Of a stretch of 64,000 nucleotides of DNA, positions 12,537 to 57,143 are shown one piece after another. The stretch spans positions 930,001 through 994,000 of the forward strand of contig NZ_JAFIDJ010000001.1 in the NCBI RefSeq assembly GCF_017051705.1, in the 5' to 3' direction. Source of the stretch: Algoriphagus lutimaris (GTDB lineage: Bacteria; Bacteroidota; Bacteroidia; Cytophagales; Cyclobacteriaceae). Position numbers and translations under genes: made by a program. Positions within the stretch are counted from its first letter, which is position 1, and each line of letters begins with the position of its first letter. Below the pieces are notes generated by a model. The model was not told the origin of the DNA and ran no database searches. It was given only the letters and a program-made list of their open reading frames with translations.

Positions 12537-14231
12537 TTACTTGATTGCGATTAAGGTTGGGTTAAGTGTTGCTTTAAAGGGGAATGAACCGAATTGAGCT
12601 ACCGACATGGTACCATCGTAACTTTCTCCTTCTACTTCTCCAGATACGTTAATGGTAATATCATTTCCTCCCGCATCAATATTGAAAGAGAATGTCAAGT
12701 TCTTTCCATTGACATTAATATCTTCTAAATCAGTATTTATTTTACCAGCTCCGGCAGGGTTGTCCAAGGAGATGGAACCTGAATAATTGGAGCCATCCTG
12801 TACAATTTCAAAAGTGCCTCCAGAGCTTCCAGCTGGTGATTCAGTTTCATAATTCCAGTTGCCAGCTACTTTAGCAGCACCTTCAGAATCTTCGTTGCCA
12901 GCTTTTTTCTTAGGTTTGGTATCAAACTCAAAAATATATCCATCAACCACCACATGTTTGATTTGGCTGTCCTTGGCAAATAGTTGATCAGTGGTAATCA
13001 CCAAGTTGGCCATTTTACCTTTTTCTATGGTGCCTGCCACTCTGCTCATTCCCAATACACTTGCTGCATTGGTGGTTAATGCTGCAAGAGCACCTTCCTC
13101 ACTTAGTCCATGCTCAATCATAGAGCTAAGAACCTTCATCACCTCACCAGACTTGGTGCCTTTGGTAGTGAATGCAAATGGCACTCCTGCTTTTTCTAAT
13201 AATCCAGCCTGTTTGATCGCATTGTCATAAGCTTCCTGGACTCTGGAATATTGAGCTTTGGTAGCCTCATCTACTTCCTCTTTTTGAGCTTTGATCGCTT
13301 TATCATCAGGAATTTCCAAACTGATTAATACAGGTACGTTTGCTGCTTTAATCACATCGATCACATTGGCATAATCATTTAAGCCAGTTAAAATCAATTG
13401 GAAGCCCAATTCCTTCTGTAAGCTAATAGCTCTTCTAACTTCCAATTCAGACGGGGCAGTATACATCACTGGGATTTGTCCATTGATTACTTCCATCATC
13501 GCTTGGTAGGTAGGATTGAATTCAGGCCTCACTACCCCAGAAGTCGTCTGGTATTGATTGCTTCTTCCTTGCGTTAATTTCGTGTTTTGATAGATGTCTC
13601 TGAATTTGGCCATAACACCTACAGCAGTGCCTGGATACATTCCTCTTGCCCCTCTAAAACTAGAAACCAAGGCAGTATTCGTTTTCAATACATTGGTAGA
13701 GTATTCAGATCCAAAAACTACCACAGCAGCTTTTCCAGCTATCATTCCACCATCAGGTAAAATTTGAGCGATCGTAAAACCAGCTTTTCTGAAGTCTTCT
13801 ACACTTTTGTCGTCAGCAGCATACTGATCCACAGCAGATCTCCATGGAGTTATACCAGCAATTTCATCAGGAGGGTTGGCCGAGACAAAATCTTTGGGTC
13901 TTTCTGGATCCTTAGGTGCAGTGATTCCTGCGTCACTTCCTCCATCTATAAATCCAGGGTAAATGAATAGTGAATCTCCCGCGATAACCTGTGCTTCTGA
14001 TGGTAAGTTCAAGTTGGATCCTACTCCTTGAATAACTCCGTCCTTAATCAGAACCGTAGCTTTCGTTCCAGATGCGCCAGGTGCTGTGATTACTGTTGCG
14101 TTTGTAATTGCATAGGTGCTGGTGACGGGTTTTTTACCAGTAGGATCACTTTGTGCATAAAGAGAGTTGGTAGAAAACCATCCAGCGACCAATAAACCTA
14201 GAACACCCGCTTTAAGTAGTGTTTTTTTCAT
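12537..14231 (-). CDS. Amidohydrolase-family protein lacking the metal-binding motif, with C-terminal beta domain (paralog 1 of operon)
   Basis: First gene of the three, 564 aa, signal peptide ending SLYAQ. The amidohydrolase part covers about 35-440 but the HxH site reads GFIDGGSDAG (residues 93-102), and the later ligand positions read MYTAPSE, ILTGLND and FTTKGTKSG, so the metal centre is absent. After a charged linker (KPKKKAGNEDSEG) comes a domain of about 100 residues rich in Gly, Asn and beta strands, starting GNWNYETESP, that the other two paralogs lack. Secretion and operon position suggest a partner of the active enzyme. Catalysis by another mechanism cannot be excluded. Confidence 0.9.
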   Translation of the reverse strand: MKKTLLKAGVLGLLVAGWFSTNSLYAQSDPTGKKPVTSTYAITNATVITAPGASGTKATVLIKDGVIQGVGSNLNLPSEAQVIAGDSLFIYPGFIDGGSDAGITAPKDPERPKDFVSANPPDEIAGITPWRSAVDQYAADDKSVEDFRKAGFTIAQILPDGGMIAGKAAVVVFGSEYSTNVLKTNTALVSSFRGARGMYPGTAVGVMAKFRDIYQNTKLTQGRSNQYQTTSGVVRPEFNPTYQAMMEVINGQIPVMYTAPSELEVRRAISLQKELGFQLILTGLNDYANVIDVIKAANVPVLISLEIPDDKAIKAQKEEVDEATKAQYSRVQEAYDNAIKQAGLLEKAGVPFAFTTKGTKSGEVMKVLSSMIEHGLSEEGALAALTTNAASVLGMSRVAGTIEKGKMANLVITTDQLFAKDSQIKHVVVDGYIFEFDTKPKKKAGNEDSEGAAKVAGNWNYETESPAGSSGGTFEIVQDGSNYSGSISLDNPAGAGKINTDLEDINVNGKNLTFSFNIDAGGNDITINVSGEVEGESYDGTMSVAQFGSFPFKATLNPTLIAIK

Positions 14232-14408
14232 ATTGATTGATGGTTAAACATATCTAGCAAGCTAACAAAAGGCTTCACAGAATCCTTTGTTAATTATTTT
14301 TTATGGCTATTTTTTTGATTAATGGCTATTCGAGGCGTTTGAAATACTATTTATTAAACTCCAAATACAATTGCAGTTTGAAAAAAATATTTGAATGGTG
14401 AATCCTTA

Positions 14409-14437
14409 TTGTAATTAGTTTGAGAATATTATCTTTA
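14409..14437 (+). promoter_or_regulatory. Predicted Bacteroidota-type promoter of the polysaccharide cluster
   Basis: TTG at 14409-14411 is followed, after 18 bases, by TATCTTTA at 14430-14437, which differs from TAnnTTTG only at the last base. The ATG of the response regulator is 24 bases further. Spacing and position fit the Bacteroidota housekeeping sigma factor. Confidence 0.45.
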
Positions 14438-14460
14438 ACCACCAGTTCACCCTGATTATT

Positions 14461-14820
14461 ATGAAAAAAATCCTGATTATTGAGGATGATTTATTGATTT
14501 CTAGCTTAGTGGAGTTTAGGTTGAAAAAAGATGGGTATATCACTCATCTTGTTCAAGACGGTAATGAGGGTACCAAAGCTATTGAGAGTTTTGATCCCGA
14601 TTTAATCATTACCGATGTAATGATGCCTTTTAAAAGTGGTATTGAAATCATTCACTACGCTAGAAAAAATAAACCAGACACTCCCATCATTGTATTAAGT
14701 TCATTAGGGGAAGAGGAAAAGATTGTATTGGAAGCATTTAATCTCGGTGTTGCCGATTTTATTCCCAAGCCATTTAATCCCAATGAATTAGCAATTCGGG
14801 TAAAACGTATTATCAGGTAA
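14461..14820 (+). CDS. Receiver-only response regulator
   Basis: The product is 119 aa and consists of a single receiver domain with no output domain. The acid pocket is Glu8/Asp9/Asp10 (IIEDD), the phosphorylation site is Asp52 (LIITDVMMP), the switch serine is Ser80/Ser81 (VLSS), and the conserved lysine is Lys103 (IPKPF). No histidine kinase is adjacent. It is the first gene of a five-gene block; the next start follows three bases after its stop. In this setting it probably controls activity of the downstream glycan synthase by protein contact, perhaps through the HEAT-repeat protein, rather than transcription. That role is inference. Confidence 0.93.
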   Translation: MKKILIIEDDLLISSLVEFRLKKDGYITHLVQDGNEGTKAIESFDPDLIITDVMMPFKSGIEIIHYARKNKPDTPIIVLSSLGEEEKIVLEAFNLGVADFIPKPFNPNELAIRVKRIIR

Positions 14821-14823
14821 TAT

Positions 14824-16413
14824 ATGGGAAAACGGTCTACGCTAGTTTATTTTATTGTAGTATTATTTACGATTAATCTTGGAGAATCTTTCGCCCAAGA
14901 CAGTTTGCCCTATAGGGATTCTACTAGCTTTTTTAAATTTTTAGAGCAGCAAGAGGAAATTCCTGCCTTGGTATACAGGTTTAAATTGGAACTGAAGGAA
15001 GGGTCGGAAGCCTTATTAGCAGATTCGACTTTCCAATTCAGTCAACTGGATAATTCTACATGGATATCCAAAACCTATCCTAATTTTTCATCTTGGTATG
15101 CTGCAGGGGCAGAATACCTTGCGTCTGACCCACCCTTACTTCAACCGGAATTTTTGGTATATGAAGAAGTTTCGGATTACCAAGCTACGCTAGATTATGT
15201 AAGTAACCTTTTGAGGAATCAAGATATTTTTATTCCTGAATCCAGTCTTGAAGTAGGTGATGAATTAGTGATGCTGGCCAATTTGGTTCCTTATGAGCCC
15301 ATGGTAAAATATAGGTTTCATTTTTTCTCTGATTACAAATTGGTGATCGTGGTCAGTTTAATTGTATTCTTTTTAATTATGGCCATCGGAATGATCCTAT
15401 TCATGGTGGTAATCAAAACCAGACATTCCAAAATCGAAGCCTTAAAAGAAAAATATGAAGCTCAAATCATCGGCCCTTTGTCCGAAGTGCTTTTTGAGAA
15501 GTCGGAAGAGGAGATTAATTTAATGACAGATGCTGATATCTATGCAATTTTTCCAGAAAAGGATTTTAAGAAAAAACTGTTTAAAGAAGTATTGATTGAT
15601 AAAATCATCTCTTTAAATAAAAAGATGAAAGGGGATTTTAAGGATAAGCTAAAATCACTGTATAAAAAATTTAAACTGGATACCATCTCTTACAATAATC
15701 TTAAAAGTAAACGGTGGGATGTGGTGACTAGAGGATTGGTTGAAATTAATGAAATGGACGTGGTCGAAGCCTTACCAGTGGTGAGGGATTTGACCAATGC
15801 TTCCAATTTTTACATCCGATCTCAATCGATCGCAACGCTTTTAAATTTGTCAGAAAAGGTTGACCTCTCCACGATAAAAAAACAGTCCTACCCACTATCA
15901 AGATGGCAGCAAATGAATTATTTGCGGATAATCAAATACCTGCAAATTCAGAAATCCTTGAATATCGACACCCTTTTTTATGGTGAGAATCAAACGATTC
16001 GATTATTTGGATACAAGCTGGTAAGAATGCTTGGTAGGGTAGACTTGATAGGACAGTTAGCTGAAATTGCCCCAAATGTGGATGATGTGGAAAAAATAGA
16101 GATTTTAAAAACCTACAAAATCATAGGGATTCACACAGAGGCTACGTTTGTAAATCAATGTCTTAGGTCAGAAAATCCTGAACTCGTCGTAGCCGCAGCA
16201 AAAGCTTCCGGGGTAATTGGGGATCAAGTGTCCGCCCATATATTAATTGAGTTATTGAATGATCAACCCAGTTTCCAATTAAAGATGTTATTCTTAGATA
16301 ATCTGATGAAGTTGGATCAAACCATGTATCAGGAATATATCTCCAAATCAAATGACTTGGAATTGAATCAAATACATGCTCACCTTATAGACCCTCTTTT
16401 ACAGCATGTATAG
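14824..16413 (+). CDS. Membrane protein with cytoplasmic HEAT-like repeats
   Basis: The product is 529 aa. Residues 1-25 are a signal peptide (SFAQD). A periplasmic segment of about 145 residues follows, then one transmembrane helix at about 172-197 (KLVIVVSLIVFFLIMAIGMI), a charged coiled region (KTRHSKIEALKEKYEAQ) and a cytoplasmic part of helical pairs resembling HEAT repeats (about 290-520; for example VVEALPVVRDLTN and VVAAAKASGVIGDQVSAHIL). It joins periplasm to cytoplasm and overlaps the glycosyltransferase start by 8 bases. Likely a scaffold that links the response regulator to the synthase; this is inference from order and topology. Confidence 0.85.
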   Translation: MGKRSTLVYFIVVLFTINLGESFAQDSLPYRDSTSFFKFLEQQEEIPALVYRFKLELKEGSEALLADSTFQFSQLDNSTWISKTYPNFSSWYAAGAEYLASDPPLLQPEFLVYEEVSDYQATLDYVSNLLRNQDIFIPESSLEVGDELVMLANLVPYEPMVKYRFHFFSDYKLVIVVSLIVFFLIMAIGMILFMVVIKTRHSKIEALKEKYEAQIIGPLSEVLFEKSEEEINLMTDADIYAIFPEKDFKKKLFKEVLIDKIISLNKKMKGDFKDKLKSLYKKFKLDTISYNNLKSKRWDVVTRGLVEINEMDVVEALPVVRDLTNASNFYIRSQSIATLLNLSEKVDLSTIKKQSYPLSRWQQMNYLRIIKYLQIQKSLNIDTLFYGENQTIRLFGYKLVRMLGRVDLIGQLAEIAPNVDDVEKIEILKTYKIIGIHTEATFVNQCLRSENPELVVAAAKASGVIGDQVSAHILIELLNDQPSFQLKMLFLDNLMKLDQTMYQEYISKSNDLELNQIHAHLIDPLLQHV

Positions 16414-17866
16414 TTTCCTATTTTATTTTCTGTTAGAAGTACTTGGGATTTTTTTCCTAGTAGTCAGTTTTTCGGTAATCATTATATACCTGACTACCAT
16501 GTTTTTGAGTGCCTTAGAGTTAAGAGATCATTTACGAAGAAATCGATTTGCTGATTATCAGGACATCATTACTTCCCCCATAGCTCCAGGAGTTTCCATT
16601 GTGGCACCTGCCTTTAATGAAGGACAAAATATAGTTCAGAATGCTAAGAGTTTGATTTCCTTGCACTATGGTAAATTTGAAGTAATCATCATCAACGATG
16701 GTTCGAAAGACGATACCCTTCAAAAGTTGATTGATGCCTTTGAGTTGGTTAAAACCAATTATGCTTACAATTACCAAATTGAATGCAAACCAGTAAGAGG
16801 TGTTTATAAGTCAAGAAATGAATCCTTTAGCAAACTGTTGGTCATTGATAAGGAAAATGGAGGGAAGGCTGATGCATTAAATGCAGGGATTAACGTGGCT
16901 TCAATGGAAATCATCTCTTGTATTGATGTGGACTGTATTCTTTCCCATGAATCAATTACTAGGATGGTCAGACCTTTTATGGAGGAAACCAACAGAAAAG
17001 TAATTGCTGTAGGAGGAGCCATCGGTATTGCAAATAACTGTGACGTACAAGATGGGACCGTAACCAAATATCGGATTCCAAATACCCTGCTAGGAAGATT
17101 TCAGGTGATAGAATATTTCAGGGCATTTTTGATGGGAAGGATGGCATGGACAAGAATCAATGGACTTATGCTTATTTCCGGTGCTTTTGGATTTTTCAAA
17201 AAAGACTTGGTACTAGCCGTGGGTGGATATTTTCCTAAAACTGTTGGAGAAGATATGGAATTAGTGGTAAGAATACGTCGCTACATGGAAGAGCGGAAAA
17301 TCCCATATAAAGTAGGGTTTGTTCCTGATCCGTTGTGTTGGACGGAAGTACCCGAAGATGAGTCTGTTTTGTCCCGACAGAGAAACCGATGGATTCGAGG
17401 TACTATCGAAACCTTACAACTTCATAAGGTGGTGAAACTTAACCCAAGGTATGGAGTATTAGGATTACTTTCTTATCCCTATTGGAGTGCATTTGAGAAA
17501 TTCGCCCCCATTGTGGAGCTCTTGGGAGTTCTATACACCTTAACCTTGATCGTAATTGGGGATTTTAGTGCTTTTTATTTTATCGCACTGTTTTCCATGC
17601 TATATCTACTCTCCTTGTTGGTTTCCTCTTTTAGCATATTATATGAGCAAATTGCATTTCATAATTACAAGGATAAAAAAGACCTCAATAAATTAATATT
17701 CACAGTATTAATTGAACCATTTATCATTCATCCAAAGGTGGTTTTGTGGGGTTTGAGAGGCCATATTGACTTTATTAAAGGTAAAGGAGGGTGGGGCCAG
17801 ATGATCCGGACCGGATTTAAGAAATCTGAAGACCGAAAGAATTTTGAACCAGAAACGAATGCCTAA
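16406..17866 (+). CDS. Processive family-2 glycosyltransferase (PgaC/cellulose-synthase-like)
   Basis: The product is 486 aa. An N-terminal membrane segment (about 5-35) is followed by a GT-A domain with NDGS (97-100), KADALNAG (154-161), the DVD motif (174-176), GED (281-283) and QRNRW (325-329), the set that marks processive beta-glycan synthases. Two or more membrane helices follow (about 365-430). No PilZ domain is present, so c-di-GMP control like BcsA is not expected. It most resembles poly-N-acetylglucosamine or hyaluronan-type synthases, but the sugar cannot be read from the sequence. Its placement between the HEAT protein and a YaiO-like barrel supports synthesis and export of an extracellular polymer. 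Confidence 0.92.
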   Translation: MYSFLFYFLLEVLGIFFLVVSFSVIIIYLTTMFLSALELRDHLRRNRFADYQDIITSPIAPGVSIVAPAFNEGQNIVQNAKSLISLHYGKFEVIIINDGSKDDTLQKLIDAFELVKTNYAYNYQIECKPVRGVYKSRNESFSKLLVIDKENGGKADALNAGINVASMEIISCIDVDCILSHESITRMVRPFMEETNRKVIAVGGAIGIANNCDVQDGTVTKYRIPNTLLGRFQVIEYFRAFLMGRMAWTRINGLMLISGAFGFFKKDLVLAVGGYFPKTVGEDMELVVRIRRYMEERKIPYKVGFVPDPLCWTEVPEDESVLSRQRNRWIRGTIETLQLHKVVKLNPRYGVLGLLSYPYWSAFEKFAPIVELLGVLYTLTLIVIGDFSAFYFIALFSMLYLLSLLVSSFSILYEQIAFHNYKDKKDLNKLIFTVLIEPFIIHPKVVLWGLRGHIDFIKGKGGWGQMIRTGFKKSEDRKNFEPETNA

Positions 17867-17869
17867 TCC

Positions 17870-19096
17870 ATGAAAAAAAATGTATTCCTACTTCTTATTG
17901 CATTTTTAGGTTTCGGTTCTCTAATGGCACAGGATTCATTTGATCCTGATGAGTTACTGAAAGAAGCGAGAACGCTCATATTTGACAAGAAATATCAGGA
18001 GGGAAGAAAAATTGCATTTAGGGCTTTGGATAAATATCCAGATTATGCAGATATTTTGATTCTCGTGGGAAGAAGTTATGCCTGGGAGGGAAAGAATGAT
18101 TCTGCATCTATTTACCTGGAACGTGCGATAATTGCGTCTCCTACTTATTCAGATGGGTATTCTGCCTATTTGGATAATTTGATGTGGGCAGGAGACTATG
18201 ATCAAGCCGATGAAGTGCTTACTAAAGCAAAATCAAACTTCAATGAACAATTACCGGATGATTTGAGGTATAAAGAGTCTCGTTTGTATTATTTCAGAGA
18301 GTCTTATGATGAAGCCTATGCCATTGCAGAGGAGCTTTTTGAAAAGGACTATAATCAAGAAGGATTATTGGGTTATATGAATAACCTACAACGCCTAAGA
18401 AGAACCAATGCTGTCGGAGTCACTTATGATTACGATAACTTCAATGGTGCTATTTCCCCGTGGAATACCTTTTCATTTTATGGAAGAACAAGAACTAAGC
18501 TGACGGGGTCTTTAATTGCAAGGGTAACACAATCTTCAAGATTTGATTCTCAAGGAACCTTATACGAGTTGGATGCTTATCCCTCTTTGGGAGAAAAGGC
18601 TTATGCCTATATTAATATTGGAGGTTCTGGAGCAAGTTTCTTTCCTAAGTTCCGATTCGGAACTTCCATCTATTTCAATTTGAATAAAGCTTGGGAATTA
18701 GAAGGAGGGTATCGTTATCTTGGCTTCTCAGAAGCCACCCATATTATCACGGGATCACTGGGTAAATATGTAGGAAATTGGTGGTTGAATTTACGTGCCA
18801 ACGTAATTCCTTATGACGGAAAAGTAAGTACATCAGCTAATTTTCAAGCCAGATACTATTTCAAAACTGCTGAAGACTTTTTCAGCATTCAATTGAGTTC
18901 TGGAGTATCACCAGATGAAGAGAATAGAGATCAAAGCCAATTATTAAATTCCTATCGTGCCAGACTGGGGTATCAGCAATTGATTAGCCCTCGTTTTTTG
19001 ATCTCTGCTTTTACTGGATACAGCAAGGATGAGATCAGTTCGGATAACTTTCGAAATGACCTCAACTTCACCTTAGGTTTGGAATATAGATTTTAA
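17870..19096 (+). CDS. YaiO-family outer-membrane beta-barrel with TPR-like N-terminus
   Basis: The product is 408 aa with a signal peptide ending SLMAQ. Residues about 28-165 are helical TPR-like repeats (LIFDKKYQEGRKIAFRAL, SIYLERAIIASPTYSDGY). From about 175 to the end, alternating aromatic strands finish with LNFTLGLEYRF, the C-terminal aromatic typical of outer-membrane barrels. This is the layout of the YaiO family (TIGR04390), comparable to the TPR-plus-barrel PgaA or BcsC exporters. The likely role is passage of the polymer through the outer membrane. It starts 3 bases after the synthase stop. Confidence 0.88.
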   Translation: MKKNVFLLLIAFLGFGSLMAQDSFDPDELLKEARTLIFDKKYQEGRKIAFRALDKYPDYADILILVGRSYAWEGKNDSASIYLERAIIASPTYSDGYSAYLDNLMWAGDYDQADEVLTKAKSNFNEQLPDDLRYKESRLYYFRESYDEAYAIAEELFEKDYNQEGLLGYMNNLQRLRRTNAVGVTYDYDNFNGAISPWNTFSFYGRTRTKLTGSLIARVTQSSRFDSQGTLYELDAYPSLGEKAYAYINIGGSGASFFPKFRFGTSIYFNLNKAWELEGGYRYLGFSEATHIITGSLGKYVGNWWLNLRANVIPYDGKVSTSANFQARYYFKTAEDFFSIQLSSGVSPDEENRDQSQLLNSYRARLGYQQLISPRFLISAFTGYSKDEISSDNFRNDLNFTLGLEYRF

Positions 19097-19107
19097 GGAA
19101 CTCTTAT

Positions 19108-20289
19108 ATGATCTCAGAAGAATTAAAAATCTATCTAAAACGCACCCTGCCTATTATTGGCATTTTTGTGTTGTTTCCATTGATTAGTTATGGAATTTGG
19201 GAATTCTACCCAAAAAGAAATCTGAATTTACTAATCATTGACAAAACCGTTTTAGGGCCTGGATTAGTTGAACATAGCAGTTTGTTTTGGGTACTAAACC
19301 ATCAGAAGTATACTAAAAGGGATCAGACTTTTTATGATAGGAAAGTAGATTACTTGGGTTATTATCCTGCTGGAGAGAAACCTAAACCAGAGATCAAAGA
19401 TCTTTCCAAGTATTCATCTCAAATGATTCAGGATAAAGTATCTAATCTGGATTTGATTTTCATTACTGATACATATGGAGTAATGGAGGCGACAGAAAAA
19501 GTAGATAACAATTCAATCACTTTAGTTCCAAAGAAGATCTATGGAGGATTAGATGAAAAAGATATTGAGTTGATACGAGAGGCAAAAGATCAGGAGAAAA
19601 CCATTGTAGCTGAATTCAATACCATGGCAAGTCCTACTTCCAAGGAGAATAGAACCGAATTTGAAAACTTAATGGGGCTTCAATGGACTGGTTGGATCGG
19701 GAGATATTTTGATGAAATGGACACCTTGTTGAATACAGAGCTTCCCAATTGGATGAAGTTTCAATACAAAAAACAGCATGATGGGAATTGGTTGCCCTCT
19801 GGACCCGGATTGATATTCATTCATGAAGACGGAAGGATAGAGGGGCTAACCTTTAAGGAAGATTTTCAGAATAAAATACCTCTTATTCGCTCCCAAAAGA
19901 TTAATCCATTAAGTGAATTACTCCCTGAAGTAGTTCCCTATCCGGATTGGTTTGATGTGGTTTTGATTGAGCGGGATTATAAAGTCATTTCCTATTACGA
20001 TATCAACCCCACATCTGAAGGGTTGGAAAAATTGAGAAGTATGGGGTTGCCAAGATTTTTTCCTGCAGCTGTAGTCAAAGACAATGGTAAAGGAAAGTTG
20101 TATTATCTGGCAGGTGATTATTCAGATTTACGTGTGGATTTAGGTTCCTCCCAGTTTACTGGTCTTCCATTTTTTTGGAAAGGTCTGCACTTGGTAACTG
20201 ATTATACCGATAGAGAGAGCTTCTTCTGGAATTATTATTATCCTCTAACTTCGAAAATTCTGGAGGATGCCTATAGCTCCAAAAATTAA
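19108..20289 (+). CDS. Membrane-anchored protein of unknown function in the polysaccharide cluster
   Basis: The product is 393 aa. One hydrophobic helix lies at about 14-33 (IIGIFVLFPLISYGIWEFY); the rest is predicted periplasmic. The region after it has alternating strand/helix patterns (NLNLLIIDKTV, LDLIFITDTYGV, TIVAEFNTMASP) that recall Rossmann-like or class I glutamine-amidotransferase-like folds, but no catalytic Cys-His-Glu triad is visible and no glycosidase or deacetylase motif was recognised. As last gene of the cluster, 11 bases after the YaiO-like gene, it probably acts on or guides the glycan. Its stop overlaps that of the convergent gene by 4 bases. Confidence 0.8.
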   Translation: MISEELKIYLKRTLPIIGIFVLFPLISYGIWEFYPKRNLNLLIIDKTVLGPGLVEHSSLFWVLNHQKYTKRDQTFYDRKVDYLGYYPAGEKPKPEIKDLSKYSSQMIQDKVSNLDLIFITDTYGVMEATEKVDNNSITLVPKKIYGGLDEKDIELIREAKDQEKTIVAEFNTMASPTSKENRTEFENLMGLQWTGWIGRYFDEMDTLLNTELPNWMKFQYKKQHDGNWLPSGPGLIFIHEDGRIEGLTFKEDFQNKIPLIRSQKINPLSELLPEVVPYPDWFDVVLIERDYKVISYYDINPTSEGLEKLRSMGLPRFFPAAVVKDNGKGKLYYLAGDYSDLRVDLGSSQFTGLPFFWKGLHLVTDYTDRESFFWNYYYPLTSKILEDAYSSKN

Positions 20290-22301
20290 TTCTCCGGAAA
20301 ATCTTCAGGTAACAACTTATTAGTCTGAATCAGGTAATTATTCCGGTTTTTGAACTCTTCAAACTCTCCGGTCATCCTGTTGAGATTTTGGGTATCCACG
20401 ATCGGATCAATATTCAATCTATCTGATATAAGGAATAATTGTCCGTCTGACAAGAAGTATTCTCCATGAATATAATCGAGTAGTTGATTTTTATTTCTCA
20501 TCAAAGGCATGGCGATGTTGGACTGAAATGTTCTGGCGGTATCTAATACTTGACCTTGCCAGATCAACTCTTCCGGAAGGTTTAAATCTACTTGTTTCTC
20601 CAGGAAGGATAAGATCGATGGTGTGATTTCCCAATGTGAAACCACTCCTTTAAATGATTCTGGTCCTTTTAATTTTGGTGAATAGATAATTAATGGAACA
20701 TGGAAGCGATCCAAACGAGTAGACATGGGAATTTCAGGAAGTCTGTGGTCACCCGTGATGATGAAAATGGTATTTTCAAACTCTGGCCTTTTTCTATATT
20801 CATTGAAGAAATCGCGAACTGCGTCATCCGCATAGAGCAAAGTCATATAAATATTCTCATAGGATAAATAGTCATTGACTTTGGAATCGCTGAAACCCAG
20901 TTCATTCGAAAGATAATTCCGTAGTTTAGGTTGATAGATTTCGGGATTGGGAACGATATAAGGGTCATGAGAGGTTTGAGTCTGAAAAATCCTTAACTGA
21001 GGAGAATCATCAGATTCTGGTAGTTTACTCAATCCATTAGAGAACATGGCTTTATCAGGGTAACCCCAAGAAAAACCAGATTCAGAAGGCGTTTTTTCAT
21101 ATTCAGGACCATAGCTCTGTTGATCCACAATTAAATCCACCTCTTGATAATCCAAGAAACTCCCTTCGTTATCGAAGTTTTGGTCTGCTCCAATAAAGAA
21201 ATTCAATTCATATCCATTTTCTTTCAAAATACTAAGAATGGTTTCGTGTTTAGGATAGTTGGGAGAGAACTCCAAAAATCCATTTTTCCCAAAAGGCAAA
21301 CCAGCCATGGTGCCAGGAAGTATACCAAATGTTCTACCGGTGGATGAAATTGCATTTTCCCATACTAAACTGGATACCGCCAAAGAATCCAAGAAAGGAG
21401 TGAAGCTCCCTAAATAGGCATCTCTACCGGAATAGGCTCTTCCTAAACTTTCAAATAAAATGAAGACGATATCTGGTTTGGACTCTAAGCTATCGAAAAA
21501 AGGACTTAATACATCAGGATATTCTGCTCGATGCACAAAAGGATAGATGTCATCAAAATAATCCTTTTGCACAATCAGATCATTGCCGGAAGGTCTCAGG
21601 TAAAAATCAAAGTAATAATTATCATCAAACATGAAGTAATTGAATGATGCTTGGGATAAAAAATGAGTTTTATTTACCTGAACATTGCTTTTATTCTCAT
21701 TGGCTGAGCTGTTATCTGTAATAGGGAAGAATACATAGAAGAAAATAAACACATAGGTAACGCCACTGACTACCAAATAAGTTTTAAGTGATAGCTTGAT
21801 GAATCGGTAACCTAAAGAAAGAATCAATCCAAGTACAACGGCTCCAAATACCCCTAAGAAAACCGTAAGAAAGTTTAATTGTCCTGAAGCTTGCACTGTA
21901 GCTAGTAAGTCTTCTAGACTATATGCGTAAACATCACTTCCTAGAGGGAGTAGAGTTTTTAGGAAATAAGATATGAGTGCTACATGGATGATGATGGTTA
22001 ACACAAAAATCAATAGCGTTAAGCCCCTTCCAAGTTTAGGTGAAAATAAACTTACTACTAGATGAACCATAAGCAGCAAACCCATAAAATAGAGATACCA
22101 TCCTACATCCTCCAGTAAGCTTTCTATGATTACATCAGATATGGTAAAATTTAATAAGTGATTACTAAAGACTAGTTTTAATTCTAAAATCCTGATAATC
22201 AGCATTATAAATAAAAACATAATTCCCATTCCCCAGAAGAATCTTAAGATGGTTTGGATTTTCAGGGGTAAATTGGACCTGATTTCGGCTTTTTGGGCCA
22301 T
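20286..22301 (-). CDS. LtaS-like sulfatase-fold membrane enzyme
   Basis: The start is taken at the ATG 22301 (MAQKAEIRS), 671 aa; a TTG 15 codons upstream is less likely. Five membrane helices occupy about 19-195. The extracytoplasmic alkaline-phosphatase-type domain has Glu284 (LFESLG), a nucleophile candidate at Thr321 or Thr324 (SSTGRTFG), His445 (QTSHDPY), the WGYPDKAMF motif (about 413-421) and Asp518/His519 (ITGDHR). This matches lipoteichoic-acid-synthase or phosphoglycerol/phosphoethanolamine transferases. In a Gram-negative it probably adds a phospho-group to a membrane glycan or lipid. It converges on the polysaccharide cluster. Confidence 0.88.
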   Translation of the reverse strand: MAQKAEIRSNLPLKIQTILRFFWGMGIMFLFIMLIIRILELKLVFSNHLLNFTISDVIIESLLEDVGWYLYFMGLLLMVHLVVSLFSPKLGRGLTLLIFVLTIIIHVALISYFLKTLLPLGSDVYAYSLEDLLATVQASGQLNFLTVFLGVFGAVVLGLILSLGYRFIKLSLKTYLVVSGVTYVFIFFYVFFPITDNSSANENKSNVQVNKTHFLSQASFNYFMFDDNYYFDFYLRPSGNDLIVQKDYFDDIYPFVHRAEYPDVLSPFFDSLESKPDIVFILFESLGRAYSGRDAYLGSFTPFLDSLAVSSLVWENAISSTGRTFGILPGTMAGLPFGKNGFLEFSPNYPKHETILSILKENGYELNFFIGADQNFDNEGSFLDYQEVDLIVDQQSYGPEYEKTPSESGFSWGYPDKAMFSNGLSKLPESDDSPQLRIFQTQTSHDPYIVPNPEIYQPKLRNYLSNELGFSDSKVNDYLSYENIYMTLLYADDAVRDFFNEYRKRPEFENTIFIITGDHRLPEIPMSTRLDRFHVPLIIYSPKLKGPESFKGVVSHWEITPSILSFLEKQVDLNLPEELIWQGQVLDTARTFQSNIAMPLMRNKNQLLDYIHGEYFLSDGQLFLISDRLNIDPIVDTQNLNRMTGEFEEFKNRNNYLIQTNKLLPEDFPEN

Positions 22302-22379
22302 AATTGATCTATAACTTTTTGAGTGAAGACTGAAAAGATAGGGCAAAATCGGGTATCTTCAACCTGACAAATCAATTAT

Positions 22380-22922
22380 ATGAGTAAAACAGATCTTCTA
22401 TTTGAACTTTACAGCAATTTGAGCACAACTGGTGCGTTGACTTTTAGTTCAAAATCGTTAGTAAATAAAATGCTTTCATATTCTGATCTTTCAGATGCAA
22501 AACTAATTGTTGAAATGGGAGGTGGGGATGGAAGCATTACACAAGGAATTGTGGACCGATTGGCTCCTGATGCTGAATTGTTGGTATTTGAAATCAGTAC
22601 TTCTTTTTGCGATGCTATGAAAAAGCAATTTCCTCAGGAAAATGTGAAAATCATTAACGATTCTGCAGAGAATATTCATCTATATTTAGATGGAAAAAAG
22701 GTGGATTATATTTTTTCATCCTTGCCCTTTAGTTTTATTTCACCAGAAATCCGAGATGAAATCTTAAGGCAAAGTAGAAGTGCGCTAAACAGCAGTGGAT
22801 ATTTCATTCAGATATGCTATTCCTATTTATTGAAAAGCCTATTCAAAAAGCATTTCAATTCTGTGAAATCAAGTTTTACTTTAAAGAATCTGCCACCGGC
22901 TTTTGTGATGATCTGTAATTAA
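22380..22922 (+). CDS. SAM-dependent methyltransferase, PmtA-like
   Basis: The product is 180 aa. Motif I reads VEMGGGDGSITQ (about 41-52), the acidic strand LLVFEIS follows, and the SSLPFSFI motif (about 112-119) plus the ending NLPPAFVMICN resemble rhizobial phospholipid N-methyltransferases (PmtA) and related KsgA-like folds. It may methylate phosphatidylethanolamine or another envelope amine. It begins a run of forward genes, divergent from the LtaS-like gene, with the DUF3253 gene 5 bases downstream. Substrate assignment is tentative. Confidence 0.8.
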   Translation: MSKTDLLFELYSNLSTTGALTFSSKSLVNKMLSYSDLSDAKLIVEMGGGDGSITQGIVDRLAPDAELLVFEISTSFCDAMKKQFPQENVKIINDSAENIHLYLDGKKVDYIFSSLPFSFISPEIRDEILRQSRSALNSSGYFIQICYSYLLKSLFKKHFNSVKSSFTLKNLPPAFVMICN

Positions 22923-22927
22923 TAGAA

Positions 22928-23179
22928 ATGGATATCCTGAAGACAGCCCTTATGGAAATGTGCAGGAAAAAGAAAAAGTCCTTCTTTTATCCAGATTTGA
23001 TCATTCAAGAAATGTACCCGGAAGACTGGACACATTTCTATCCTGAGTTAGCGTTACTTATAGCATCTTTACTTCAGGGAAGCACAATTGAACTAGAAGG
23101 TCAACCATCCGAGGACTTATTTAAGGACATTGTTAACCGAACAATTAAAATAAGATGTTTGGGTAAACCTAAATCCTAA
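22928..23179 (+). CDS. DUF3253 family protein
   Basis: The product is an 83 aa soluble protein. It has the DUF3253 pattern: an N-terminal helix, SFFYPDLIIQEMYPEDW, a second helix (LALLIASLLQGSTIEL) and an ending like RTIKIRCLG, which looks like a small winged-helix fold. The molecular function of the family is not known. It sits 5 bases after the methyltransferase and 32 before msrA, so it is probably co-transcribed. Confidence 0.78.
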   Translation: MDILKTALMEMCRKKKKSFFYPDLIIQEMYPEDWTHFYPELALLIASLLQGSTIELEGQPSEDLFKDIVNRTIKIRCLGKPKS

Positions 23180-23211
23180 ATCATCTGTTCTAATTCAAAC
23201 ATAAATGAATC

Positions 23212-23790
23212 ATGGATAAGGATTTGAAATTGCCAGAAACAGAAGTATCCATTCCCGAAGGTTTGGAATTAATTACATTAGGCGCAGGTTGCTTTTGGTG
23301 TACAGAAGCAGTTTTTCAGAGATTAGAAGGAGTAAAGTCTGTAGTTTCTGGATATTCAAATGGTCTTATAGCTCAACCTACTTATGATCAAATCTGTACA
23401 GGTACAACAGGACATGCAGAAGTGGTACAGGTTTATTTTGATCCTAAAATCATCAGCCTACATAAGATTTTAGAGGTGTTTTTTGCCACCCATGATCCAA
23501 CTACACTAAATAGACAAGGAGCTGATTCTGGTCCTCAATACCGCTCTGCCATTTATTATATTAATGAAACTCAAAAGTCTATAGCAATGGATCTCAAATC
23601 ACAATTGAATGAGTCAAATGTGTTTGAAAACCCTATCGTGACTGAAATAGCTCCATTGTTAAGCTTTTATCCAGCAGAAAATTATCATCAGGATTTTTAT
23701 AATCGAAATGGGCATCAGCCCTATTGCCAATTTGTGATCAAACCTAAAGTGAACAAACTGGAAAAATTCTTTAAGGAAAGTTTGAAATAA
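23212..23790 (+). CDS. msrA: Peptide-methionine (S)-S-oxide reductase
   Basis: The product is 192 aa. The MsrA signature GCFWC is at residues 26-30, with Cys27 as nucleophile, followed by VKSVVSGYSNG, TGHAEVVQV, FFATHDPTTLNRQG and AENYHQDF. The enzyme reduces the S-form of methionine sulfoxide in proteins, using thioredoxin. There is no signal peptide, so it is cytoplasmic. No MsrB domain or gene is attached. It belongs to the run of closely spaced genes starting at 22380. Confidence 0.96.
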   Translation: MDKDLKLPETEVSIPEGLELITLGAGCFWCTEAVFQRLEGVKSVVSGYSNGLIAQPTYDQICTGTTGHAEVVQVYFDPKIISLHKILEVFFATHDPTTLNRQGADSGPQYRSAIYYINETQKSIAMDLKSQLNESNVFENPIVTEIAPLLSFYPAENYHQDFYNRNGHQPYCQFVIKPKVNKLEKFFKESLK

Positions 23791-33481: not shown

Positions 33482-35374
33482 TTAATACAAGGTTCTAAAT
33501 CTGATCGTACCTGGAATTGTTTTCAATGCATCTATAGCATCCGGAGAATAAGCCTTATCAATGTCGGTAATCACATATCCTATCTTCTCGTTGGTCTTTA
33601 AGTATTGCCCTACAATATTGATTTCATAATTAGCCAACACTTGATTGATTTTTGCCAATACACCAGGTTCGTTCATGTGGATATGAATAAGCCTGTGTGC
33701 ATCCTGCAAAAATGGGAGTTGAATATTTGGGAAATTCACAGAGTTATAGGTATTGCCTGTATTGATGTATTCCATGATTTTTCCAGGAACAAATCGTGCG
33801 ATATTTTCCTGAGCTTCCAGCGTACTTCCTCCAATATGTGGCGTTAAAATGGTGTTTGGCAAACCAATTAATTCAGAAACGAATGGTTCTGAGTTGTTTT
33901 TAGGTTCTTCAGGGAAAACATCTACTGCACAACCTGCCAAATGACCGGAAAGAATGGCTTCTTTCAAAGCAGCTATTTCTACCACATGACCTCTACTAAG
34001 GTTCACAAGAATCGCTCCTTTTTTCATTTTAGCGATTTTCTCCTTATTAATGATGTTTTTATTGCTTTTACGCCCATCTACATGCAGGGAAATCATATCA
34101 CAAGTACTCAGCAATTCATCCAAAGAGTCTAATTTTGTTGCGTTTCCTAGTGCTAATCTTTCAATTACATCATAATAGAACACATTCATTCCCATACTTT
34201 CGGCAAGGACAGAAAGCTGGGCTCCAATGTTACCATAGCCAACAATTCCCAATTTTTTTCCTCTTATTTCAAAACTACCACTGGCAGATTTATCCCATTT
34301 TCCTTGATGCATGGCAACGGATTTATCTGCAAAATTCCGCATTAGAAATATAATTTCTGCAATGGCCATTTCTACTACGGATCTGGTATTGCTAAATGGG
34401 GCATTGAATACAGCAATCCCCTTTTCCTGACAAGTTTCCAAATCAATTTGATTAGTGCCAATACAAAAAGCACCAATGGCGATCAATCGATTAGCATTCT
34501 CCAAGACCTTCTTGGTGATGTTGGTTTTGGATCGAATACCGATGATCGATACATTCTTGATTTTCTCACAAAGCTCATCTTCGCTCAATGCAGAACTGAT
34601 GACTTCTACATCGTAGCCTTCTTCTATTAACAACTCTACCCCGATTGGGTGGACATTCTCTAAAAGAAGGACTTTGATCCTACTTTTTGGGTATGAAAAC
34701 TTCGTGTTCAATTTATTGATATATAGTATTTCATCTAAACTTGGTGCAATATGATCTGCTTGGCTAGTTACTTTTGGTCGGGATACATTTTCGGTAAAAG
34801 CATAAAACTTATTTGCTAATCCAGAAGCTTTGATTTCATAATCAGTATAGCCATCACCAATCACATAAATATCTCCTTCTAAATTAATTCTTTTGATGGT
34901 TTCTGCCTTTCCTTTATTAGATGAAAGAGGATTTTCTCGATTGAAATCAACGATATTTCCTGCATCGTCGTAGACAAATTCATTGGCAAATACATTCTCC
35001 TTTTTGATGCCATAATCCCCTACAATAGGAATAATGAAATCCTTGAATCCATTGGAAATAATAAAGATATCTTCTGCATTTTCCTGAAGAAACTCTTTAT
35101 TCCTTTCAAAAGACTTAGATACTTTTTTCTTTAAAGCATCAATTAAGTCATCTATTTGGGATTGTGTCGCATTTAAAATTTCAAGACGCTGAATTAAACT
35201 ATCACGAAAAGTCAAGGAACCATCCATTCCTTTGTCAGTGATGTCTTTAATTGCTTGGAGTTTACGATCTCTTTCTGGATCATTTTCCAAGCTTATTTCA
35301 CCTAGAATGTCCAATGCTTCCACCTGTGTGAAAGTACTGTCAAAATCAATGATAAATTTTTTGGTTTGAGGCAT
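33482..35374 (-). CDS. serA: Fused phosphoserine phosphatase-like HAD and phosphoglycerate dehydrogenase
   Basis: The product is 630 aa. Residues 1-225 are a HAD phosphatase of the SerB type: DFDST (10-14; Asp10 nucleophile, Asp12), SNG (107-109), Lys154/Lys156 in NKGK, and GDGYTD (173-178). Residues about 232-545 are D-3-phosphoglycerate dehydrogenase: GIRSKTNIT, GAFCIGTNQID, the NAD site VGYGNIGAQ, LSRGHVVE and the catalytic HIGGST. An ACT domain closes the protein (about 555-630; HIHMNEPGVLAKINQVL). One chain thus holds the first and last steps of serine synthesis, with SerC supplied elsewhere. The ACT domain suggests serine feedback. Fusion of this kind is known in Cytophagales as far as I recall. 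Confidence 0.94.
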   Translation of the reverse strand: MPQTKKFIIDFDSTFTQVEALDILGEISLENDPERDRKLQAIKDITDKGMDGSLTFRDSLIQRLEILNATQSQIDDLIDALKKKVSKSFERNKEFLQENAEDIFIISNGFKDFIIPIVGDYGIKKENVFANEFVYDDAGNIVDFNRENPLSSNKGKAETIKRINLEGDIYVIGDGYTDYEIKASGLANKFYAFTENVSRPKVTSQADHIAPSLDEILYINKLNTKFSYPKSRIKVLLLENVHPIGVELLIEEGYDVEVISSALSEDELCEKIKNVSIIGIRSKTNITKKVLENANRLIAIGAFCIGTNQIDLETCQEKGIAVFNAPFSNTRSVVEMAIAEIIFLMRNFADKSVAMHQGKWDKSASGSFEIRGKKLGIVGYGNIGAQLSVLAESMGMNVFYYDVIERLALGNATKLDSLDELLSTCDMISLHVDGRKSNKNIINKEKIAKMKKGAILVNLSRGHVVEIAALKEAILSGHLAGCAVDVFPEEPKNNSEPFVSELIGLPNTILTPHIGGSTLEAQENIARFVPGKIMEYINTGNTYNSVNFPNIQLPFLQDAHRLIHIHMNEPGVLAKINQVLANYEINIVGQYLKTNEKIGYVITDIDKAYSPDAIDALKTIPGTIRFRTLY

Positions 35375-53653: not shown

Positions 53654-53741
53654 TATAAGGATCATTTTTTGAACGGAGATGTGAGCTCATTGATTTTCAT
53701 TATTTTGTGGCATTGTTCAAATTTTAATGCCTCAACCCAAG

Positions 53742-56700
53742 ATGAAAAATACCTATGCCAAATACCTATTGGCGGCTGCTATTCCTGGTTTTTTTGCATG
53801 TCAAAGAGAAAAAGTAGACTTGCGCGAAAAAACACTTACGAAAGAAGAAATAGCGAACATGGCCCAAGTGGCTGAAACACAAATTAGTCCCACCCTTGCC
53901 GAAGGGCTTGAACTCAAACTTTGGGCTGTAGATTCCCTGGTATATGACCCTATTTCAATTCAAGTTACGGATGATGGTAGTTTGTACTACACACGAACAA
54001 ACCGTCAGAAGAACTCTGAATTTGATATTAGAGGGCATCAAGATTGGGAAATCGAATCTATCAGTTTACAAACTATTGAGGAAAAGAGATCCTTTTTGCA
54101 AAAGACTTTGTCTCCTGAGATGTCTGATAAGAACACATGGCTTGCTGATGTCAATGGTGACGGTTCCCATGACTGGCGAGACATGACGGTAGAGCGTGAG
54201 GAGCTTTATAGGTTGGAAGATAAGGATGGAGATGGATTTGCAGATTATTCTCAATTGATGGTTCAGGATTTCAATGATGTGACTACAGACGTTGCAGGTG
54301 CTTTATTGAAATTAGAAGACAATTTATTTATTGGTGTAGGACCTGATTTATGGAGACTTTCCGATACCAATAATGATGGGATTATGGATGAGAAGGAGTC
54401 TATTTCACATGGATACGGAATCCATATCGGGTTTGGAGGCCATGGGATGTCAGGGCTTGAATTAGGTCCTGACGGAAGAATTTATTGGGGAATCGGTGAT
54501 ATTGGATTTAATGGGAAAGGTCCAGATGGGAAAGAGTGGAAATACCCCAACAGAGGGGTGATTGCTAGAGCCAATCCTGATGGAAGTGATTTTGAAATCT
54601 TCGCCATGGGAGTGAGAAACACCCATGAATTTACATTTGATCAATACAATAACCTGATCTCCGTGGACAATGATGGTGATCATGGTGGAGAAAGTGAACG
54701 CTTGGTTTACTTGGTAAATGGTTCAGATACTGGCTGGAGAACCAACTGGCAATTTGGAAAGTACCGGGATTCTGAAAACAATACCTATAAGGTATGGATG
54801 GATGAAAAGTTGTATTTACCAAGACACGAAGGCCAAGCAGCTTATATCACTCCACCGATTCAAAATTATGTCAACGGACCAACCGGAATGGTATTTAACC
54901 CAGGTACTGCTTTGGCGCATAAATGGAAGAACACATTTTTTGTAGCTTCTTTTGTTGGAAATCCAACGGCCTCGGGAATACACGCTTTTAAACTGGAGCC
55001 TGATGGAGCCTCTTTTAAAATGTCCCAAACTGAAAAAGTGATGGGGGGAGTATTGGCCACTGGACTTGATTTTGGTCCGGATGGATCCTTATACTTTGCG
55101 GATTGGATACAGGGTTGGAATACCAAGAATTATGGTAGAGTTTGGAAACTGGATGACCCATCCGGAAAAAATTGGGAAGCTAGAAAGATCACTGCCCAAG
55201 TAATCAACACTGATTTTAAAACGCTTACCGATGAAGCCTTAGGAGAATATTTGGGTGATGAGGATATGAGAATTAGGAGAAAAGCCCAGTTTGAATTAGC
55301 TAAAAGAGGGGAGAAAGGCTTCCAGATATTTGAAGCAGCTATCAATCAGAAAAACAATCAGCTTGCCAGAATCCATGCCATTGTAGGTATCAGCCAACTG
55401 GCTAGAATGGATAAAATGGATTATGCGGAGTCTCTAGTTGCTTTATTGCAAGATTCAGACCCCGAAATCAGAGCCCAAGCTGCAAAATGGATAGGAGATA
55501 TTAAATTTAAAGAGGCAGGAAATGCCTTGATGCCTTTGTTAAGCGATTCAGAAATCAGAGTTCGATTCTTTGCTTCAGAGGCATTGGGAAGAATAGCATA
55601 TGAACCTGCGATTGAGGGTTTGATCAATGTATTAAAGGAAAATAATGATGAGGATGCTTTTTTAAGGCATGCAGCGAGCTTGGCATTGGCTAGAATCAAT
55701 AAAAAAGAACCATTGATCGCCTTGGCCTCTAATCCATCTCCTGCGGTTCGTTTAGGTGCTGTTTTGGCATTGAGAAGAATGGCTGAGCCAGGCATAACTG
55801 CATTCCTTTCCGATTCCGATGAGTACATCGTAACTGAAGTTGCCAGAGCCATTAATGATGATTTTTCTATTGAGCCAGCTCTTCCTGCCTTAGGCGATTT
55901 ATTAGTGACTACTTCCTTTCAAAATGAGCCATTGATCAGAAGAGTCATAGGAGCAAACCTTCGTGTGGGAACTGAGAAGTCTCTGGAAAATTTAAAAACT
56001 TACATCTCTAAGCCTAGAATTAATCCGGTTTTGAAAGCAGAAGCTATCGCAACTATTGGTACATGGGCCAAACCATCCGTTTTGGATAGAGTAGATGGAA
56101 GAAACCGTGGAGCAGTTGAAAGAGATTTAGCACCTATTCAAGCTTCTGTAAGTAACTCATTAATAAGGTTGCTTTCTGACCAAAGTGATCTTATTAGAGT
56201 AGAGGCAGTAAGGTCTATTGGTAAATTGAAAATTTCGGAGGCTGAACCTAAACTAATATCTATTCTAAAAAATGACCCGATAGATCCTGTTCGTGTTGAA
56301 GCTATTCTAGCATTAGCCAAAGTGAGCCCAGAAAATATTTCTGGTCCAATCGAATTGGCAATGAATGATAAATCTAAAGCAGTAAGGGTGGTAGGATTGG
56401 ACTTATTGACCAAAACCGATATCTCTGATGATTTAATGGAAAATCTATTGAAAGATGTGATTCAAAATAGAACCATAGAAGAAAGACAAGCTGCGTTGCT
56501 AAGTTTAGGAAATCTTCCAAACTCTGCTAATCTAGAAATTTGGAATTCCTTATTGGATGATCTGAAAGCCAATAAACTTCCTAATGAAGTGATGATTGAA
56601 TTGGAGGAAGCTATCGCAGAAACAGGATCAAAAGAGCTCAAATCAAAGTATGATCAAATCCAACAAGAAAGAACCGGAGGTGATCTTGTCGCTCTATATA

Positions 56701-57143
56701 GTGGAGCTCTTGAAGGGGGGAGTGTTCGATCAGGCCGAAGAATTTTCTTCCAAAATCAAACGGCTCAGTGTATCCGATGTCATGGATATGATGACATGGG
56801 AGGAACTGCAGGGCCACATTTAAATGGGATCGCAAATAGACTCTCTAGAACACAAATCCTAGAAGCTTTGATTGAACCAAGCAAGCGACTTGCCCCTGGA
56901 TATGGATTCGTTCAACTTACTTTGAAGGATGGTAGCGCAGTCAATGGAACCTTGATGGAGGAAACTGAGGAGGGATTGGTAATTAAAGAAGCCTCAAAAC
57001 CAGAGCGATTAATTCCCAATTCTGAAATTTCTGAGCGAAAAAATTCTCCTTCCAGTATGCCGGATATGAAAGCAATTTTGAGCAAAAGAGAAATCCGGGA
57101 TTTAGTAAGCTTCGTGAGTACGATGACAAAAGAGTGGGAGTAA
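53742..57143 (+). CDS. Large lipoprotein: propeller domain, HEAT repeats and cytochrome c (PVC-type CxxCH protein)
   Basis: The start at ATG 53742 gives MKNTYAKYLLAAAIPGFFAC, a lipobox with Cys20; ATG 53727 is also possible. The product is about 1133 aa. A six-bladed glucose/sorbosone-dehydrogenase-like propeller spans about 45-470 (PISIQVTDDGSLYYT, FAMGVRNTHEFTFD, GLDFGPDGSLYFADW) with acidic calcium-like motifs DVNGDGSHD and DKDGDGFAD. HEAT repeats cover about 500-960 (ALVALLQDSDPEIRAQAAKW). The C-terminus carries one haem c motif, CIRCH near residue 1010. It is likely a surface- or periplasm-anchored sugar or alcohol dehydrogenase passing electrons to haem. The substrate is unknown. Confidence 0.93.
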   Translation: MKNTYAKYLLAAAIPGFFACQREKVDLREKTLTKEEIANMAQVAETQISPTLAEGLELKLWAVDSLVYDPISIQVTDDGSLYYTRTNRQKNSEFDIRGHQDWEIESISLQTIEEKRSFLQKTLSPEMSDKNTWLADVNGDGSHDWRDMTVEREELYRLEDKDGDGFADYSQLMVQDFNDVTTDVAGALLKLEDNLFIGVGPDLWRLSDTNNDGIMDEKESISHGYGIHIGFGGHGMSGLELGPDGRIYWGIGDIGFNGKGPDGKEWKYPNRGVIARANPDGSDFEIFAMGVRNTHEFTFDQYNNLISVDNDGDHGGESERLVYLVNGSDTGWRTNWQFGKYRDSENNTYKVWMDEKLYLPRHEGQAAYITPPIQNYVNGPTGMVFNPGTALAHKWKNTFFVASFVGNPTASGIHAFKLEPDGASFKMSQTEKVMGGVLATGLDFGPDGSLYFADWIQGWNTKNYGRVWKLDDPSGKNWEARKITAQVINTDFKTLTDEALGEYLGDEDMRIRRKAQFELAKRGEKGFQIFEAAINQKNNQLARIHAIVGISQLARMDKMDYAESLVALLQDSDPEIRAQAAKWIGDIKFKEAGNALMPLLSDSEIRVRFFASEALGRIAYEPAIEGLINVLKENNDEDAFLRHAASLALARINKKEPLIALASNPSPAVRLGAVLALRRMAEPGITAFLSDSDEYIVTEVARAINDDFSIEPALPALGDLLVTTSFQNEPLIRRVIGANLRVGTEKSLENLKTYISKPRINPVLKAEAIATIGTWAKPSVLDRVDGRNRGAVERDLAPIQASVSNSLIRLLSDQSDLIRVEAVRSIGKLKISEAEPKLISILKNDPIDPVRVEAILALAKVSPENISGPIELAMNDKSKAVRVVGLDLLTKTDISDDLMENLLKDVIQNRTIEERQAALLSLGNLPNSANLEIWNSLLDDLKANKLPNEVMIELEEAIAETGSKELKSKYDQIQQERTGGDLVALYSGALEGGSVRSGRRIFFQNQTAQCIRCHGYDDMGGTAGPHLNGIANRLSRTQILEALIEPSKRLAPGYGFVQLTLKDGSAVNGTLMEETEEGLVIKEASKPERLIPNSEISERKNSPSSMPDMKAILSKREIRDLVSFVSTMTKEWE

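Follow-up and report, generated by a model that had tools for sequence, protein, structure and literature searches.

How could a bacterium switch an exopolysaccharide synthase without cyclic di-GMP (c-di-GMP)? The question is raised by a gene cluster of Algoriphagus lutimaris, located at positions 14461-20289 (+) of a 64,000-nucleotide stretch of its 4.7-Mb genome, hereafter the window, and comprising (i) a receiver-only response regulator, (ii) a HEAT protein, (iii) a GT2 polysaccharide synthase, (iv) a YaiO-type TPR/beta-barrel protein, and (v) a membrane-anchored protein, referred to below as gene 5. Most of the synthase-dependent exopolysaccharides that have been studied well are switched by c-di-GMP, and a c-di-GMP receptor is usual, if not universal, in the corresponding secretion systems. 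The cluster is read here, at a probability of about 0.6, as an exopolysaccharide machine of the synthase-dependent kind that is controlled by a phospho-receiver, a reading carried by gene content, synteny, catalytic and phosphorylation sites, fusions and co-occurrence, all of them computed in this work.

The synthase, the YaiO barrel and the conserved gene set

All five open reading frames (ORFs) lie where the original prediction had placed them, in the same order and with spacings of 3, -8, 3 and 11 bases. The regulator (14461..14820, +, 119 aa) displays a receiver domain (PF00072, E 6.8e-25, 87.8 bits) and no output domain; the HEAT protein (14824..16413, +, 529 aa) reaches 24.7 bits against HEAT_2, under the cut-off of 27.7; and the GT2 protein (16406..17866, +, 486 aa) matches PF00535 and PF13641 and contains no PilZ domain. 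The fourth protein (17870..19096, +, 408 aa) matches the YaiO outer-membrane barrel models PF19413 (E 1.9e-58, 197.8 bits) and TIGR04390 (E 4.3e-62, 210.1 bits), with the whole model covered, in addition to TPR_19/TPR_14. In the GT2 protein, D98, D174 and D176 (DxD), E282-D283 and the QRxRW motif (325-329) are invariant in all 39 aligned sequences, a chosen set comprising the window and 38 of 58 stretches, and mark it as a probable processive-type synthase. The pairing of such a synthase with a TPR-barrel exporter, proposed at the outset, therefore agrees with the Pfam and NCBIfam matches and the GT2 motifs, and the YaiO protein is likely the exporter.

The conservation of this arrangement was assessed in two samples. 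The class was sampled with 395 genomes, 56 of which contain GT2 relatives at E <=1e-60 (63 matches); 59 class loci were assembled, 57 around GT2 matches (the window and the five weakest being left out) and two via gene 5 (G043, G114); the named relatives are the best 80 of 321 and include many metagenome-assembled genomes, one record of which, L130, named Beijerinckiaceae, clusters with Chitinophagaceae and may be misbinned. A HEAT gene lies directly upstream of GT2, on the same strand, in 57/59 class loci and 73/80 named relatives. Within six genes of GT2 are found a YaiO barrel (50/59 and 55/80, respectively), a receiver-containing gene (48/59 and 66/80) and, more narrowly, a stand-alone receiver (45/59 and 52/80); the counts come from profiles iterated on these very loci, which favours the finding of members. 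Four other GT2 genes from the host genome served as a small control, with flanks of 1.5 kb: a first run ignored ORFs below 150 aa, and its repetition with ORFs of at least 70 aa again disclosed partner genes beside none of the four. The synteny is far beyond chance. The gene order differs among loci, including receiver-HEAT-GT2-YaiO-gene 5, receiver-YaiO-HEAT-GT2 and others, so that function, more than a frozen gene order, seems to keep these genes together.

Counting HEAT genes directly upstream of, or fused to, GT2, the association extends over ten named phyla, comprising Bacteroidota (47/50), Pseudomonadota (9/10), Bacillota (7/8), Myxococcota (3/3), Gemmatimonadota (2/2), and Acidobacteriota, Balneolota, Bdellovibrionota, Spirochaetota and Thermodesulfobacteriota (1/1 each), together with one unassigned locus (1/1); the single Actinomycetota locus has none (0/1). 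The conserved synteny sought in Bacteroidota is thus present, and its confinement to that phylum did not hold. The Bacillota loci are instructive in this respect. By the stricter rule a YaiO barrel is near GT2 in 42/50 Bacteroidota and 0/8 Bacillota loci (44/50 and 0/8 when TPR-only matches are included), whereas seven of the eight Bacillota loci contain HEAT and seven a receiver protein, the latter always multi-domain (stand-alone, 0/8). Since we take the hosts of these eight loci to be monoderm, the exporter tracks the presence of an outer membrane, and the control module is independent of it.

Closer to the host, the synthase is patchy, with no GT2 match in four sampled genomes of the host family (G019, G064, G078, G437); the nearest named relative among the best 80 of 321 is from Mongoliibacter sp. 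(Cyclobacteriaceae), with 70% identity. In another genus of the family, locus L093 (5713-11359) displays the same chromosomal surroundings and retains receiver-HEAT-GT2-YaiO together with a second stand-alone receiver. A Bacteroidota-type promoter pattern matched three times in the window against 3.18 expected, none of the matches lying upstream of the receiver, and an Rfam search of 14000-23500 gave no match.

Two variations of the core genes were also observed. A tandem GT2 pair stands behind HEAT in the Chitinophagaceae-like loci L129, L130, L131, L135 and L177, and might correspond to a two-sugar polymer. In nine loci YaiO is followed by a family of about 735 aa (the member scanned, L097 2973-5114, contains DUF4838), and in six of these the YaiO protein measures 937-1013 aa.

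The proposed receiver and HEAT control module

The phosphorylation site of the receiver-only regulator is intact. The window protein contains E8-D9, D52, S80 and K103, and these positions, with serine or threonine at 80, are kept in 38/38 aligned receivers (a chosen set of 37 of 58 stretches and the window); in a broader set, the 105 stand-alone receivers located near GT2 in 98 loci, D52 is found in 101 and K103 in 103. The receiver gene is also tightly placed, the gap to HEAT having a median of 6 bases (62 pairs), and HEAT and GT2 are closer still, with a median gap of -1 and abutting or overlapping genes in 82/133 pairs, as computed from first possible starts, which favours overlap.

The HEAT protein shows one predicted transmembrane (TM) helix (179-197) behind a signal-like N-terminus, in line with the membrane-spanning protein first proposed, and at least one TM helix occurs at or before the HEAT domain start in 128/133 pairs. 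Its structural model displays a confident helical solenoid from about residue 171 (block pLDDT, the predicted local distance difference test, mostly 94-98), preceded by 165 poorly modelled residues; the solenoid is presumably cytosolic. Foldseek comparison with the PDB, which all structure searches covered exclusively, returned generic HEAT/ARM scaffolds and so says nothing on function. In the Sphaerochaeta locus L169, HEAT and GT2 form a single protein, the HEAT part reaching 20 bits and Pfam HEAT_2 scoring above its cut-off. A second, unrelated HEAT-rich protein is encoded in the window at 53727-57143 (+) and combines DUF7133, HEAT and cytochrome c domains. Directly before HEAT, seven loci contain a member of a protein family whose one scanned representative (L047 5423-6775) is a CotH kinase, six of them between YaiO and HEAT; this neighbour is possibly another phospho-modification branch.

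The kinases that might act on the receiver are seen in relatives. Of 139 loci, 47 encode a receiver protein of more than 450 aa no further than six genes away, and the long proteins scanned (one per locus, 47 of 53) comprise HATPase_c in 39, HisKA in 38, Hpt in 18 and GGDEF in 5, so that hybrid kinases often flank the module. Adjacency, the HEAT-GT2 fusion and the kinases near relatives' loci together suggest that phosphorylation of the receiver would switch the synthase.

Concerning c-di-GMP, the host genome gave no match to GGDEF or PilZ, domains that were matched in 8/14 and 5/14 control genomes, respectively; with no PilZ in the gene set either, control by c-di-GMP is unlikely here. Outside Bacteroidota, some receivers of the module carry GGDEF-family domains, with the architectures Hpt-REC-GGDEF-REC (L153, L161) and REC-GGDEF-REC (L149); the GGDEF motif was not found in the GGDEF regions of these three, and GGEEF is present in a neighbouring protein of both Stutzerimonas loci. 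Independence from c-di-GMP is therefore supported for the host genome and not for the whole family, and the proposal that the receiver and HEAT proteins replace c-di-GMP control stands to that extent.

The LtaS/OpgB-like gene and gene 5

The five-gene unit first described is incomplete, because the convergent gene beyond it also belongs to the system. This gene (20286..22346, -, 686 aa; its TTG start is uncertain) shares four bases with the 3' end of gene 5 and encodes an LtaS/OpgB-like transferase of the sulfatase superfamily (PF00884, E 5.5e-32, 111.7 bits). Its best PDB relatives are VP1736 (3lxq, E 6.2e-31), LtaS (2w5q/2w8d) and LtaP (4uop), and its best NCBIfam models phosphoglycerol transferase I (PRK12363) and LtaS. 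As in LtaS, LtaP and OpgB, five TM helices, predicted here, are combined with a sulfatase-superfamily domain outside the cytoplasm, in which the aligned catalytic positions are occupied by E, T, D and H: E299 is present in 16/18 aligned sequences (17 of 20 stretches, a chosen part, and the window), T339 in 15/18 (serine in three), D533 in 16/18 and H534 in 18/18. We take these residues to be catalytic, as in LtaS. In contrast to LtaS, LtaP and OpgB, the enzymes of the window family occur fused to a polysaccharide synthase or linked with one.

The fusions are recurrent. An LtaS-like domain is joined to GT2 in 12/140 tree rows, namely L055, L066, L075, L078, L082, L083, L092 and the named L107, L109, L110, L117 and L122, which requires at least four changes on the tree (all trees were built with FastTree alone); in L055 two ORFs share the LtaS part between them. 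In L061, L063, L080 and L085 the LtaS-like part follows GT2 with a TPR tail present, in L084 it is fused behind HEAT, and a gene of its own, placed nearby, encodes it in L045, L057 and L091 as well as in the genus and the window. Regarding co-occurrence, all 20 genomes with an LtaS-like match above 600 bits have GT2, 16 of them being profile seeds, and all 25 genomes with gene 5 have it as well, compared with 56/395 overall. Since the alignments used for gene 5 and the LtaS-like protein took their seeds from loci linked to GT2, the seed-free counts provide the fair test, with the reservation that related genomes lack independence: GT2 is present in 4/4 non-seed genomes for the LtaS-like protein (G163, G223, G385, G447) and in 6/6 for gene 5. 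Proximity by chance was considered for the LtaS-like gene and rejected, as fusions and co-occurrence speak against it. Enzymes of the LtaS/OpgB type transfer glycerophosphate from phosphatidylglycerol; the one in the window would likely decorate the polymer with a phospholipid-derived group. A small methyltransferase gene lies next to it (22380-22922, +), closest among NCBIfam models to ornithine-lipid/phospholipid N-methyltransferases; it adjoins the cluster throughout the genus and also in L093, there without gene 5 and the LtaS-like gene, stands near the cluster in L063 and L106, and could bear on the lipid that the LtaS-like enzyme uses as donor.

Gene 5 (19108..20289, +, 393 aa), described initially as an unknown anchored protein, is indeed predicted to be N-terminally anchored and proves recognisable by its predicted fold. 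Sequence searches identified no Pfam or NCBIfam family above cut-off (best Pfam, 17.7 bits), nothing significant among PDB sequences (best E 0.69) and no match to an Agd3 chain; likewise, the long gene-5-like proteins of L157 and L169 and the L156 protein have no PDB sequence relatives. The predicted structure is GATase1-like, with 3RHT and 4JQS among its neighbours. The window protein contains no cysteine and the 22 aligned rows no conserved cysteine column, so the catalytic cysteine of GATase1 enzymes is lacking. According to the account of the Aspergillus exopolysaccharide deacetylase Agd3 (PMC7229062), its CBM87 domain shares this GATase1-like fold without Cys-His-Glu triad and the neighbours 3RHT and 4JQS; gene 5 differs in being stand-alone and membrane-anchored, the comparison is one of structures, and glycan binding is a prediction. 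Invariant aromatic residues (W61, Y82, Y123, W196, W215, W281) are compatible with glycan binding, and no more than that. On the structural model, gene 5 is likely a periplasmic glycan-binding or processing subunit with a CBM87-like fold.

Elsewhere in the window, 33482-35374 (-) encodes a 630-aa protein combining a HAD-like N-terminus with a 2-hydroxyacid dehydrogenase containing an ACT domain, which looks like a phosphoserine phosphatase joined to a phosphoglycerate dehydrogenase.

Proposed mechanism and competing readings

We infer the contacts between the proteins, the direction of control, the polymer and its decoration as follows. A histidine kinase, encoded outside this cluster but adjoining the corresponding genes of many relatives, would phosphorylate the stand-alone receiver, which would dock on the cytosolic HEAT solenoid tethered by one TM helix beside GT2; polymerisation would be switched or licensed by this docking. 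Synthesis and extrusion of the glycan would fall to GT2. In the periplasm the chain would be held or guided by the anchored GATase1-like protein and would receive a glycerophosphate-type (or other phospholipid-derived) group from the LtaS/OpgB-like enzyme, and the YaiO TPR-barrel would carry it across the outer membrane.

Several observations weigh against this scheme, the GGDEF-family receivers outside Bacteroidota among them. Gene 5 lies within six genes of GT2 in 21/59 class loci and 8/80 named relatives, and an LtaS-like domain in 19/59 and 18/80, so that both are accessories rather than universal parts; L093 contains neither, and neither search matched elsewhere in its genome (G105). Two of the 18 aligned LtaS-like sequences, L080 and L085, are changed at three of the four metal/nucleophile positions, and LtaS-like proteins below 600 bits occur mostly without GT2 (3/18 genomes have it). 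On the control side, the window cluster contains no kinase, and four of the 105 stand-alone receivers (L082, L115, L124, L132) have no D52; some versions of the module may have lost phosphorylation control.

The last two points would also suit a different role for the control proteins, in which HEAT is a constitutive assembly scaffold and the receiver serves another local circuit (localisation, motility or protein-protein switching) without gating the synthase. The association of HEAT with GT2 is steadier than that of the receiver in the class loci (57 against 48 of 59), and HEAT is found fused to GT2, whereas no receiver is fused to either in the locus tables. Against such a role stand the median gap of 6 bases between receiver and HEAT, the receiver protein accompanying the module in seven of eight Bacillota loci, and the hybrid kinases often flanking it; a non-gating receiver is considered unlikely.

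It is comparably improbable that GT2, the LtaS-like enzyme and the GATase1-like protein build or modify a periplasmic or membrane-bound glycan, on the model of OpgB acting on osmoregulated periplasmic glucans or of a glycolipid/teichoic-like anchor, with YaiO as an outer-membrane partner and not a pore. The relatives of the sulfatase-superfamily gene, by PRK12363 and LtaS among NCBIfam models and VP1736, LtaS and LtaP in the PDB, are what such a pathway would display, as are the Bacillota versions without YaiO; the barrel in 50/59 and 55/80 loci and the invariant processive-synthase motifs of GT2 speak against it.

The cluster is very improbably a divergent poly-GlcNAc (Pga/Ica-type) locus: PgaC/IcaA (TIGR03937) is the closest NCBIfam model of GT2 and E. 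coli PgaC outscores YaiP and BcsA on the family profile (130, 59 and 30 bits), but the 137 bits fall far under the cut-off of 422, PgaC groups with YaiP and BcsA apart from all 140 tree rows (on long branches), and the seven window proteins scanned (14461-22922) contain no deacetylase, PgaB-type hydrolase or PgaD.

The reading as plain pga or bcs was rejected, as parts are missing, and the absence of PilZ, deacetylase and hydrolase originally asserted was borne out among the proteins scanned. The window cluster resembles E. coli pgaABCD in pairing GT2 with a TPR/beta-barrel exporter, although the match of PgaA to the YaiO-family profile is weak (31.5 bits, chiefly over the TPR part), and differs from it by the receiver, HEAT, GATase1-like and LtaS-like proteins and a host without GGDEF match. 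With the E. coli bcs system it shares a GT2 and, presumably, a phospho-group decorating enzyme, BcsG being annotated as cellulose phosphoethanolamine transferase; unlike bcs, its GT2 has no PilZ and scores 30.9 bits against the CelA model (cut-off 699), no BcsB or BcsZ is seen in the cluster, and BcsG gives no match to the LtaS/OpgB-type profile at E 1. The E. coli yaiO-yaiX-yaiP-yaiS locus likewise comprises a YaiO barrel (36 bits) and a GT2 (59 bits) by the window-family profiles, the 774-base yaiO matching in the barrel part only; unlike the window, it contains an acyltransferase pseudogene and a putative deacetylase, with no HEAT or receiver annotated. In the account of Xanthomonas xagABCD (PMC3609779), a GT2-dependent biofilm polysaccharide operon is regulated via RpfG (HD-GYP); the likeness is one of description.

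No homologous cluster turned up as already described: among the matches listed from the open-licence literature, by titles and abstract starts, no description of the module was found, and an earlier one is possible. All parts come from known families. In the literature searched, descriptions seem to be lacking for their combination, for the control module and for the fusion of GT2 with LtaS. A broader proposal, tentative and possible rather than probable, is that the exopolysaccharide machine belongs to a pan-bacterial, phosphorylation-gated, c-di-GMP-independent synthase class in which a phospho-receiver would bind a membrane-tethered HEAT protein on the GT2 catalytic domain, many Bacteroidota members placing on a Gram-negative surface a teichoic-acid-like phospho-exopolysaccharide that an LtaS-type transferase, in places joined to the synthase itself, would decorate during its emergence.

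The YaiO barrel family, for which no functional literature appeared by family name or among the titles of the matches listed, gains a likely role. The GT2-LtaS fusion predicts a phospho-decorated exopolysaccharide, detectable by chemistry. For a host with no GGDEF or PilZ match, the cluster suggests a concrete and testable way of switching a synthase, and the module could explain the control of slime in biofilm-forming bacteria without c-di-GMP.

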